Below are positions 46,014-51,882 of a stretch of 64,000 nucleotides of DNA, piece by piece. The notes below the pieces were generated by a model, which was given only the letters and a program-made list of their open reading frames with translations, was not told the DNA's origin and searched no databases. The position numbers and the translations under genes were made by a program. Each line of letters starts with the position of its first letter. The stretch's first letter is position 1. Location of the stretch: NCBI GenBank assembly GCA_002841355.1, contig PHFB01000012.1, positions 1 to 64,000 on the forward strand. The letters are read 5' to 3'. This DNA is from Actinobacteria bacterium HGW-Actinobacteria-1. Its GTDB lineage: Bacteria > Actinomycetota > Coriobacteriia > Anaerosomatales > Anaerosomataceae.

Positions 46014-46274
46014 CTACGATGATTGCTTCACGACAGGGATGCCCTCGATCACATCCGGGATCAGTGCGTCCGCATCTGACGAGTCTGACGCGAGTCCGAC
46101 TATGATCGCGGGACGACCTGCGGAGTCTTTGCCAATGCCCATGGACATGACGCCGCGCACCCGCAGTAGGCGGCTAGCGTGTTTGGTAAGCACGTGTTCG
46201 GGACTCTGTCGGTCGGCATCGCGAGGCGCGTCACTTGCAAGCAGCTTGCTGAACCATTCTTGGAGGGCTGACAC
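46014..46274 (-). CDS. Hypothetical protein with a V-x-G-V-x-x-x-G-I-G motif, 86 aa
   Basis: An 86-residue protein. The first half is charged and helical; the second half reads RVRGVMSMGIGKDSAGRPAI, then ALIPDVIEGIPVV. That pair (V.GV...GIG..., IP..IEGIPV) recurs in small uncharacterised proteins and in domains before trypsin-like folds, where it forms a beta-hairpin sheet. The start is a GTG at 46274 with AGAGGAA upstream. It lies 86 nt after the multihaem cytochrome on the same strand and may be cotranscribed. Function unknown. Confidence 0.62.
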   Translation of the reverse strand: MSALQEWFSKLLASDAPRDADRQSPEHVLTKHASRLLRVRGVMSMGIGKDSAGRPAIIVGLASDSSDADALIPDVIEGIPVVKQSS

Positions 46275-46360: not shown

Positions 46361-47176
46361 TTAATCGTCTTGCGGAGCGCCGCCTTTATGACATTTCTCG
46401 CACGACGCGCTGGCGAACCCGTTCGGGTGGCAGTCCCCGCACGGGAAACTGCGGTAGCTGTGTTCCTCCAGCCGAGGATGATCGAAGACGGCATCCTTGA
46501 ACGCCACCGACGGCTTGTGGCAGGACTTGCAGTCCGCGCCGAAGTGGTTCGCGGGGGGCTTATGGCAGGTTGAGCATGGCGCCTGCGCCATATCGTGACA
46601 GTTCGAACACGTGACGATCTTGTGCCCGGCCAGCGCGGAGTGTGCGCCCTTGACGGAGAGCGACTCACCGACCACAAGTGCTCCGCCCTGCTGGGATCCT
46701 GACCTGAGTATGCCTGCCGCGTCCAGCGCCGCAAACGTGATGGTATGACCGGCACTGGCATGGCACTGCTGACAGGCGAGCTTCTTGGCGTGTTCCGCGT
46801 GCGTGAGTCCGTTGCCGATGTCTGCTTCGACTGTCTCGTGGCAGGTTATGCACCTGGCATCGGGAACCTCGACCGACAGCGAGGGGAAGGTCGGCTTCGT
46901 CGTGAAGTGGTCCCACACCTCTTTGAGCGCGACGAACTTGTGCAGGAACTGGGCGGTCAGGCCCGGGTCGACGTGGCAGTCGACACATGATACGTCCGTG
47001 TGGGTGCCGGTGGCCCATGCATCGTAGTACGGCTGCATCTCATGGCATACCTTGCAGAACGCCGGTCGCTCGGTGTAGACGAACGTACCTGCCACGAGCC
47101 CGATGCCGATGAGTCCTACGACCAGCCAGATCATCAAACGTGCGGACAGGGTTCTACGCGGCTTCTCGGACATCAT
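46361..47176 (-). CDS. Membrane-anchored nine-haem c-type cytochrome (NapC/NirT-like)
   Basis: A 271-residue protein with one N-terminal membrane helix (about 14-33) and nine CXXCH haem motifs: CKVCH, CVDCH, CITCH, CQQCH, CSNCH, CSTCH, CKSCH, CGDCH and CEKCH. The first haem block, CKVCHEMQPYYDAW followed by CVDCH, is the NapC/NirT/NrfH quinol-oxidising pattern; the later haems resemble a small cytochrome c3-like or NrfB-like relay. It probably takes electrons from the quinone pool to an outer partner. No reductase is encoded nearby. Start ATG at 47176; a second ATG follows directly. Confidence 0.9.
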   Translation of the reverse strand: MMSEKPRRTLSARLMIWLVVGLIGIGLVAGTFVYTERPAFCKVCHEMQPYYDAWATGTHTDVSCVDCHVDPGLTAQFLHKFVALKEVWDHFTTKPTFPSLSVEVPDARCITCHETVEADIGNGLTHAEHAKKLACQQCHASAGHTITFAALDAAGILRSGSQQGGALVVGESLSVKGAHSALAGHKIVTCSNCHDMAQAPCSTCHKPPANHFGADCKSCHKPSVAFKDAVFDHPRLEEHSYRSFPCGDCHPNGFASASCEKCHKGGAPQDD

Positions 47177-47236
47177 GCCCCCAGGTCGACGGGTGTGCTT
47201 TCCATTTCATACCACTTCAGGGGCGAAATCTGCGTG

Positions 47237-47491
47237 CTAGTGGACGGTTCCAAGGCTGCGGCCCCAGCCGTGTGCGGTGATGGCCGAATTTAGTTGGTCG
47301 CACAGCCGATCTCGGGAATACGTCCCGGGCGGCAGAAGCGTCACCACATCCAGGACGTCGCCCGCGATATCGGCAAGCTCCGCGCGCACGATGAACTCGA
47401 GCCGCGGCACGCGACGCCGTTCGGCGAAGAGCGTGTCGATGAGTCTCTGAAGTGCGGCGTGGTCTTCGGTGGAATGCATGCGCGACATCAT
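47237..47491 (-). CDS. Hypothetical protein, up to 84 aa
   Basis: A short acidic-basic protein with no signal or membrane segment. The C-terminal half (LLPPGTYSRDRLCDQLNSAITAHGWG) looks ordered and conserved in type, the first half is helical. Several start codons (47491, 47488, 47479) are possible and none has a strong ribosome site, so the true start is uncertain. It lies between the beta-propeller CWB2 gene and the cytochrome gene, all on the minus strand. I do not recognise a family. Confidence 0.5.
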   Translation of the reverse strand: MMSRMHSTEDHAALQRLIDTLFAERRRVPRLEFIVRAELADIAGDVLDVVTLLPPGTYSRDRLCDQLNSAITAHGWGRSLGTVH

Positions 47492-49621: not shown

Positions 49622-51042
49622 CTAGCCGAGCCACCCGCGGACTGCGTTTTCGACGCCGTCTCTACCCGCATCGACCACACCGGTGAAGCGCTCCTCGGCG
49701 GAACCGAGCTCTGCGAGTGCGTGAGGCACGCGTGCGTTCTCGGCGAGCTCCTGCACTTTGCCGAGAAGCTCCACGCCGGAAAGCGTGGCGGCGTCTTCGG
49801 GTAGCGGGTCGTCGTAGAGCAGTCCGGTGAGCGCCTTGTAGACATCGCCGCCGAACTTCGCCCAGTGCGCGGTGGAGACAACGAGCACGGGGTTCGCGTC
49901 GCGCAGGCGCTCGGCCACTTCCCACGCGACCGCGGTGTGCGGGTCCATGAGGTAGCCGGTCTCGTCATAGACGCGAGCGATGACGCCGAGCGACTCGTCG
50001 TTGCTCACCCAGTCGCCGATGAAGTGCTCGCGCATGAGACGGAACGTCTCGCGGTCCACCTGGAAGCGACCCTCGGCGGAAAGCGACGCCATCCACTCGC
50101 GAACGCGCTCGGCACCGGCGAGTTCGAAGAGCAGGCGCTCCAGGTTAGAGCTTATGAGGATGTCCATGCTCGGGCTCGGTGTGGTCACGAACTGCCGGGC
50201 CGAGATGTCGTAGGTTCCCGTCGCGATGAAGTCAGCGAGCACGTTGTTCTCGTTGCTCGCACACAGGAGCTTGCCGAGCGGCACGCCCATGCGCTTCGCG
50301 TAGTACGCGCCGAGGATGTTGCCGAAGTTGCCGGTAGGCACGCACACGTCGATCTCGTCGCCGGCGGTCACGCCGCCGCTTGCGACCATGTCCGCGTACG
50401 CGCTTACGTAGTACGCGATCTGCGGCAGCAGCCGTCCCCAGTTGATGGAGTTCGCCGAGGAGAGCTTGAGGCCGTGCTTCTCGTGCAGCTCGGCGTTGAA
50501 CGCCTCGTCGTTGAAGGCGGCCTTCACCGCGTTCTGACAGTCGTCGAAGTTGCCACGCACGCCGAAAACGCCCACGTTGTCGCCGCGCTGCGTCACCATC
50601 TGCTTGCGCTGGATGTCCGAGACCCCCTCGGCGGGGTAGAAGACGACGATGCGCGTGTGGTCGCGGTCGGCGAAGCCCTCAAGCGCGCCATGTCTTTGAA
50701 CGCCGAGGTGGGCCCGTGCCAGAGTTCAAGCACGTGCATTCCCGCAACGACTTCTTCGATGGGCGCGACGCGCGGGTCGTCGAAGTTCTCACCATACGCG
50801 GTCCGCATAAGCTCGGCGATCCGCTCGGCGGGAAGATCGACGCCGAAGCGCTCGAAGATGGCCGTCGCGCGTTTCCAGTACGGCATGTCCGCAAGCGAAA
50901 GGATCTCGTCGATCGTGAAGGTCGGCAGGTCCTCGGGCACGTACAGGCCGCCGCCGAGCGCGATCCCCTTCACGACCGCGTCGGTGAACGCTGGTCGCGT
51001 GGTGTCGAGCCTTCTGGTGTCCCGATAGCGTCTGGTTTCCAT
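49622..51042 (-). pseudogene. thrC: Threonine synthase gene with internal deletion and frameshift
   Basis: Two frames together make one threonine synthase. The N-terminal frame (start ATG 51042) runs METRRYRDTRR to ELWHGPTSAFKDMA, including the PLP lysine. At about 50690 it is cut: the next recognisable residues, ALEGFADRDHTRIVVFYPAEG, are in another frame, which continues MVTQRGDNVGVFGVRGNFDDCQ to the normal end at 49622. About 34 residues that normally lie between, including the SGDTG PLP-phosphate loop, are missing. The lost length must be 3n+1 nt, near 100-103. Unless the sequence is wrong, no active ThrC is made from this locus. Confidence 0.85.
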
Positions 51043-51108
51043 GCGTGCATGGTAGCAGAGGAGCGGCGATATGGGAGAATCTGAGGCACCTGAAACGAGA
51101 GGATCCCG

Positions 51109-51882
51109 ATGCGGCAGTTCGCGACGTTCACGACCGGCGATGGCCCACTTGTCGCCGTCGCGCTGCACGGCGGGCACGACCTTCGCCCAGAGCTTGCCGC
51201 ACGCTCGTCGCTGACCGATCTCGATCGCCTTCGCGAGGAGGATCCGCATACTGCCGAGTGGACCACGTGCGCGCCCACGCGTGTGGTCGTGAACCGCTCG
51301 CGCTTCGAGGTGGACTGCAACCGACCGCGGGAGCGCGCGGTCTACAGGGTTCCCGAGGATGCCTGGGACCTACCGCTTTGGCGTGAGCCGCTCACCGAGG
51401 CAGCGGTCGATGAGTCACTCGCCGAGTACGACGCGTTCTACGCGCGCATGCGGGAGCTTCTCTCGGGCATCATCGCCGAACACGGCGCCGCGCTCGTTCT
51501 CGACCTTCACTCGTACAACCATCGCCGCGATGGCGCGGATGCGCCGCCTGCATCGCAGACGGAGAACCCGGACATCAATCTGGGCACGGGACACCTCGAC
51601 CGCACACGATGGGGGAGCGTGGCCGATACATTCGTCGCCGGGATCACCGACGCGATGCCGGATGTCGACGTGCGGGAGAACGTGAAGTTCCGAGGCGGCC
51701 ATCTCGCGCACTGGTGCTCTCTCACGTTCGGGGGCGCCGTCTGCATCCTGGCCGTCGAGTTCAAGAAGACGTACATGGACGAATGGTCCGGGGCGCTCGA
51801 TCCGACGGCGTGCGAGCGCATCGGCGGCGCGCTTGAGCGTGTCGTCCCGCAGCTCGAAGCACGGTTCCTCGGCACGCTCTGA
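51109..51882 (+). CDS. N-formylglutamate amidohydrolase family protein
   Basis: A 257-residue zinc hydrolase of the N-formylglutamate amidohydrolase family. Early ALHGGHDL, the central LVLDLHSYNHRRDG and late NVKFRGGHLAHWCS and VEFKKTYMDEWSG segments give the family's His/Asp/Glu metal and substrate residues. No histidine-utilisation genes are nearby, so formylglutamate from histidine breakdown is not the obvious substrate. The ATP-grasp gene follows on the same strand, which suggests a joint peptide or gamma-glutamyl role. ATG at 51109 follows GAGAGGA. Confidence 0.82.
   Translation: MRQFATFTTGDGPLVAVALHGGHDLRPELAARSSLTDLDRLREEDPHTAEWTTCAPTRVVVNRSRFEVDCNRPRERAVYRVPEDAWDLPLWREPLTEAAVDESLAEYDAFYARMRELLSGIIAEHGAALVLDLHSYNHRRDGADAPPASQTENPDINLGTGHLDRTRWGSVADTFVAGITDAMPDVDVRENVKFRGGHLAHWCSLTFGGAVCILAVEFKKTYMDEWSGALDPTACERIGGALERVVPQLEARFLGTL

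Follow-up and report, generated by a model that had tools for sequence, protein, structure and literature searches.

Results and Discussion

The 64,000-nucleotide stretch of DNA analysed here (the window), from genome G000, was found to encode a nine-haem membrane cytochrome, P0001, which is among the shortest members of a family in which between zero and ten two-haem units link an NrfH-like tetrahaem head to a C-terminal cap. At the level of sequence, this one family forms a ladder of lengths, with P0001 and seven other rows at its lowest rung (n = 0). The exit of electrons from the quinone pool across the thick Gram-positive envelope is poorly known, and the best reading of P0001, which we regard as probable if some way from secure, is as a general conduit from menaquinol to exocytoplasmic cytochromes, plausibly one feeding extracellular electron transfer. 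In such a conduit menaquinol would be oxidised by the NrfH-like head on the outside of the membrane, and a chain of nine haems set close together would lead the electrons to the C-terminal cap. From there they would go to a multihaem cytochrome, whether soluble, bound to the wall or secreted, and not to one dedicated enzyme. Outward transfer of this kind would fit the putative signal anchor of P0001 and the many secreted-looking multihaem cytochromes of the genome.

P0001 combines an NrfH-like head with a five-haem tail

The first-pass annotation of this DNA had described a nine-haem protein of 271 residues, and nine CXXCH motifs were indeed counted in P0001, at residues 41, 64, 109, 135, 190, 201, 216, 246 and 259. 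Among the window ORFs it is called with an ATG start codon, and no other ORF in the whole window held at least three CXXCH motifs. P0001 was 87% and 76-77% identical to its orthologues in two congeners, and the dN/dS of its gene was about 0.05-0.11 (with dS near saturation); because of this conservation and this ratio, it was taken to be a selected gene and not a chance reading frame. The features of the locus are collected in Table 1.

Table 1. Features of the P0001 locus, in window coordinates.
Feature	Position	Strand	Description	Basis
Nine-haem membrane cytochrome P0001, 271 aa	46361..47176	-	Putative signal anchor, NrfH-like tetrahaem head and five-haem tail with family cap	
Predicted membrane helix	47078..47143	-	About residues 12-33, basic residues ahead (putative signal anchor)	AlphaFold2 and sequence reading
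NrfH-like head	46745..47056	-	Residues 41-144, haems 1-4	Alignment to NrfH; invariant columns in 26 rows
Five-haem tail	46364..46609	-	Residues 190-271, zero two-haem inserts, ends in cap HPRLEEHSYRSFPCGDCHPNGFASASCEKCH	
84-aa ORF	47237..47491	-	No Pfam or NCBIfam match; neighbours the cytochrome gene in both congeners (95% and 85%)	
86-aa ORF	46014..46274	-	No Pfam or NCBIfam match; neighbours the cytochrome gene in both congeners (70% and 57%)	
Upstream block GAAGTGGTATGAAATGG	47202..47218	-	Mostly kept in three species	Alignment

The N terminus of P0001 matched PF03264 (NapC/NirT) with 53.2 bits (E 3.9e-14), above the Pfam curated cut-off of 24.1. The best NCBIfam model was TIGR03153 (NrfH), over residues 15-144, although the score of 70.6 bits lay below the NCBI cut-off of 134.2 for this equivalog; scores for TIGR02161 (NapC/NirT; 28.7 against 310.6) and TIGR02162 (TorC; 26.9 against 478.2) also fell below the NCBI cut-offs. 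The NapC/NirT-type front that had been proposed was therefore upheld by PF03264, whereas its division into a front and seven further haems was not: because the NrfH-like match reaches residue 144 and includes four haems, the layout is four plus five. NrfH of D. vulgaris (2j7a) aligned with residues 2-144 of P0001 (profile comparison E 1e-17), its M49, K82 and D89 falling opposite M47, K80 and E86, and these three columns were invariant across 26 family rows. We take M47, at the CXXCHxM position used in NrfH, to be the haem-1 methionine, and K80 and E86 to be the Lys/acidic pair of the quinone site, the ligand and residue roles being presumed. The earlier proposal of quinol oxidation thus gains support from homology, the NrfH-like head carrying the putative haem-1 methionine and quinone-site residues in invariant columns.

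The AlphaFold2 models were poor overall (mean pLDDT 56.5 and 53.7), so haem spacing was not measurable from them. A helix was nevertheless placed at residues 10-35 (pLDDT 94 and 92 in the blocks spanning residues 11-30), and the anchor topology proposed for P0001 rests on reading of the sequence. The top three Foldseek matches of the model, itself weak, were all NrfH. Eleven histidines lie outside the CXXCH motifs, which suffices for eight distal ligands. The tail gave profile matches to class III cytochromes, namely HmcA and nine-haem cytochrome c of Desulfovibrio (1h29, 1ofw), with which it would share class III haem packing; those proteins, however, are soluble and have no quinol dehydrogenase head, and a match between haem-dense sequences is weak evidence.

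The cytochrome gene lies beside threonine genes

Both small genes without known function that had been noted beside the cytochrome gene were present and were kept there in both congeners. The order in G018 and G019 was thrC, 84-aa ORF, cytochrome and 86-aa ORF, followed in G018 by glnA (thrC and glnA are names that we assigned by reading). The cytochrome gene is separated from its neighbours by gaps of 60 and 86 bases, and since these are so short, cotranscription with the small ORFs is possible. The block GAAGTGGTATGAAATGG sits 26 to 42 bases 5' of the cytochrome start and was matched once in the window against 0.03 matches expected by chance; it could be the gene's own candidate promoter element. 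A scan for promoter and terminator consensus sequences gave no excess over chance, and no RNA families were found in the window.

The link to surface-protein genes that had been drawn at first did not survive comparison, as both CWB2 genes flanking P0001 were specific to G000 and absent at the corresponding position of G018 and G019. A conserved CWB2 link was rejected on this ground and on the abundance of the domain; with 135 domain matches in the genome and five CWB2 proteins in the window, such neighbours are common. A CWB2 propeller protein had also been named as a neighbour, of which the CWB2 part stands and the propeller does not, none being found by Pfam at E 0.1 in either flanking protein. 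The 135 matches in the 2.44 Mb genome usually fall three to a protein and make up a large wall-binding set.

Fifty-six ORFs were picked in the window, of which 14 were scanned with Pfam and the other 42 judged by eye; on this basis no respiratory reductase or cytochrome besides P0001 was found in it, in agreement with the earlier remark that no terminal reductase lies nearby. In G031 (L054), from another family of the order, a relative with eight CXXCH motifs (nine sites) also lies near thrC, and in G034 and G036 relatives with 11 sites adjoin homoserine kinase and dehydrogenase genes (named by reading). Because it recurs in the congeners, G031, G034 and G036, the place beside threonine genes looks old, and it does not look like a respiratory operon. 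The threonine synthase gene of the window itself is in two frames (49622-51249) and is either a pseudogene or an assembly error; at the point where it is broken, G018, G019 and G031 have some 112 additional bases.

A ladder of lengths within one family

A search of 69 genomes of the order at E 1e-30 gave a family match in 29, and 47 rows from stretches of these 29 genomes were analysed. The spacing of the haem sites followed the pattern 23, 45, 26, ~53, 11, 15, (~21 + 15) x n, ~31, 13, in which the repeat unit of 36 to 39 residues carries two CXXCH motifs, an invariant Pro-x-x-His and mostly His-Pro (consensus of 23 units of exact 15/21 spacing). When non-canonical sites were counted, 40 of the 41 rows that were complete and anchored had an odd total of 9+2n sites (n = 0-10), the remaining row having 18; this count leaves out six of the 47 rows (two containing X, three truncated at contig ends and one lacking an anchor) and includes G035_L072, whose tail looks truncated, stops being present in its extended match. 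P0001 has the features by which the family was recognised, namely an NrfH-like head, 9+2n sites with n = 0 and the conserved cap.

The tree separated a long-form clade (support 97/88) from a short-form clade (99/93) and grouped P0001 with its two orthologues inside the short form (100/98), leaving a few many-haem rows outside both; a headless row (G050, 22 haems) had a very long branch, and its position is unreliable. At locus L080 (5088-6428), a 22-haem protein with a signal-like N-terminus consists of wire repeats and cap only, with no quinol dehydrogenase head, and adjoins an anchored member.

A stand-alone n = 0 gene occurs in six genomes (G000, G018, G019, G030, G031 and G052), each of which has a longer member as well. 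Among species of the genus, the long form counts 23 sites in both G000 and G018, 15 in G019 and 19 in G017; a block of two units separates the long forms of G000 and G017, and the G000 gene has a 117-base tandem repeat inside it. An apparent four-haem difference between G013 and G014 is partly due to a run of N in G013, the clear difference being one 39-residue unit.

The longer members share this head and this cap and have from one to ten two-haem units inserted between them, and it may be hypothesised that the wire is as long as the stretch of envelope to be crossed. In G000, the 23-haem and 13-site members would probably serve long reach and P0001 a short hop near the membrane. Passage of electrons across the wall, as first suggested for P0001, is accordingly less likely for this shortest member, the 13- and 23-site relatives in the genome being better suited to it. 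A broader proposal, which we put forward tentatively and as possible at most, is that bacteria of this Gram-positive order make one-piece wires with a quinol dehydrogenase base and a fixed docking-cap tip, whose two-haem length steps (n = 0 to 10) are set to the envelope layer and many of which end in a CX1CH last haem. The family offers a natural length series with identical ends, a stepwise middle and 9 to 29 haem sites, along which reach, potential and location can be compared; as one of the smallest members, P0001 should be the easiest to express.

Near the long form, sensor-kinase-like genes were found in 22 of 37 stretches and regulator-like genes in 19, along with selB-like genes in 20 and selA-like genes in 15 (sel names by reading); the L009 pair, the sole one checked with Pfam, comprised a HAMP/HisKA/HATPase kinase and a regulator of OmpR type. 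Beside P0001, unlike these stretches, no two-component or sel-like genes were found. The lone position between thrC and glnA (as read) and the lack of an adjoining two-component system, a feature of the long forms, would suit a non-respiratory protein of the membrane, one that buffers redox state, stores haem or acts in oxidative stress, with low constant expression near housekeeping genes. This explanation is nonetheless very improbable in our judgement, given that the quinone-site residues are invariant and that head and cap are conserved around a variable middle, which suggests two fixed docking ends.

Electron partners and direction of transfer

A search of the genome for further multihaem cytochromes and for cytochrome maturation genes, recommended in the first-pass annotation, yielded both. 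The CXXCH pattern occurred 586 times in G000 against 177 in a reversed control, and 38 ORFs with at least three CXXCH motifs (395 motifs altogether) were counted in the window and the retrieved stretches of the genome. Many of these 38 have signal-like N-termini by eye, some are large and secreted-looking, and one multihaem protein has MtrC/MtrF-like domains. Cytochrome c assembly proteins gave six matches, and there was one match to an MqnA/MqnD-type menaquinone gene.

As its head is nearest to NrfH and reductase genes were sought only in part, P0001 might be supposed to serve a single terminal reductase, with its gene elsewhere in the genome, as a dedicated small subunit, in the way that NrfH serves NrfA. 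However, NrfA (PF02335, E 1e-10) gave no match in G000 and was absent also from G017, G018 and G019; of the 69 genomes, 18 have it, 2 among the 29 family genomes and 16 among the 40 others, the genomes being related and the counts not independent. NrfA was therefore rejected as the partner. Two candidates for a single secreted partner were likewise tried and neither was fixed: a 385-aa secreted cytochrome family with seven copies in G000, present in 54 of the 69 genomes, was missing from 9 of the 29 family genomes, and a 1084-aa cytochrome, present in 41 of the 69, was missing from 13 of the 29. Homologues always coupled to one known reductase had been named at the outset as the finding that would count against a general role, and no such coupling was seen for NrfA or for these two families. 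With the P0001 gene also solitary beside biosynthetic genes, a dedicated subunit seems unlikely.

The same haem chain could in principle run in the opposite direction, with an external source (Fe(II), a partner cell or an electrode) supplying electrons to the quinone pool through surface cytochromes. Close relatives of the NrfH type are known as quinol oxidisers, which argues against inward transfer, as does ImdcA, a proposed menaquinol oxidiser (PMC7911101), and nothing at the locus suggests oxidation of an external donor. In favour of it, the otherwise anaerobe-like genome encodes a FixO domain fused with several cbb3-type cytochrome c domains (L100, 10634-12571), which points to a cbb3-type oxidase, and electron uptake through multihaem cytochromes has been proposed from transcriptomes for Coriobacteriaceae strain EMTCatB1 (PMC7943316). 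Inward transfer by P0001 we consider doubtful, and the outward conduit from menaquinol remains our preferred reading.

Several multihaem genes of the genome were also recorded. A secreted family of seven to eight haems (L014, L095, L100, L101 and L102), most members of which end in CLNCHP..LP, has seven copies in G000 and occurs in 54 of the 69 genomes. Four membrane-anchored multihaem genes with 9, 9, 9 and 12 CXXCH motifs stand in a row at L010 (6425-10116), the last matching NrfH below the cut-off, and similar pairs of 12-haem and 11-haem membrane cytochrome genes lie on different contigs (L011, 16967-19125; L012, 7434-9658).

Relation to known quinol dehydrogenases

The quinol dehydrogenases CymA, NapC and NirT are tetrahaem proteins that partner with porin-cytochrome or periplasmic enzymes. 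P0001 shares with them the PF03264 domain and, by the reading preferred here, a role as hub; it is unlike them in its haem number and presumed partners, and it scored below the NCBI NapC/NirT cut-off. NrfH of D. vulgaris (2j7a, 2vr0) resembles P0001 in its four haems, CXXCHxM first haem and quinone-site lysine and acidic residue, and also in its signal anchor, which in P0001 is putative, whereas P0001 has five more haems and a cap, lies below the NrfH cut-off (70.6 against 134.2 bits) and comes from a genome without NrfA. ImdcA, a membrane decahaem cytochrome of Thermincola (T. ferriacetica), is likewise a Gram-positive membrane multihaem protein, proposed to pass electrons from menaquinol to a periplasmic cytochrome; it has ten haems, the available part of the source mentions no length ladder, and the likeness is drawn from its description (PMC7911101). 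Two isolates of Anaerosomatales, a coriobacterial order, one of them an obligate Fe(III) reducer, have 17-18 multihaem cytochromes, and putative quinol-oxidising multihaems are described as well (PMC9686372); a putative 20-haem quinol oxidase has been described in Carboxydothermus (C. ferrireducens; PMC7829351). These many-haem proteins of Gram-positive bacteria are also compared by description, and the accessible portions of both papers describe no repeat architecture. Proteins of the P0001 kind (CymA/ImdcA-like) are thus already known, and what is unusual is the stepwise wire length and the recurrent CX1CH site; neither a stepwise quinol-dehydrogenase wire nor a CX1CH haem site was found described in a literature search of mainly open-access texts.

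Spread of the family and non-canonical haem sites

Two wider samples, each an even and non-exhaustive selection from a larger group, comprised 296 genomes of the class (E 1e-30) and 396 of the phylum (E 1e-25). In the class sample 29 genomes matched, all from the order of G000; in the phylum sample 30 matched, 28 of them outside the class, where the listed matches cover mostly the head. Confinement of the architecture to the order was rejected, as two of the three outside-class loci read (L119 and L120) carry a family-like cap with a three-haem spacing of ~25/14/29, the third (L118) having a different tail. Among the sampled genomes, by sequence comparison, close relatives are confined to the order and the architecture is not.

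A CX1CH motif was found at the last site in 18 of the 47 rows, CX3CH at the first site in four and CX4CH in one. Counting these non-canonical sites restores odd totals, and each may therefore still mark the place of a haem site. The conserved CX1CH reads CTCH or CSCH in place of the last CXXCH (L009, 9492-10688, and 17 other rows), the 13-site paralogue of P0001 being one such member. It is shorter by one residue than any c-type motif met with in the literature searched, and if haem is covalently bound there, a wider definition of the c-type attachment motif will be needed. CX1CH also occurs outside the order, in L120, which ends in CSCH.
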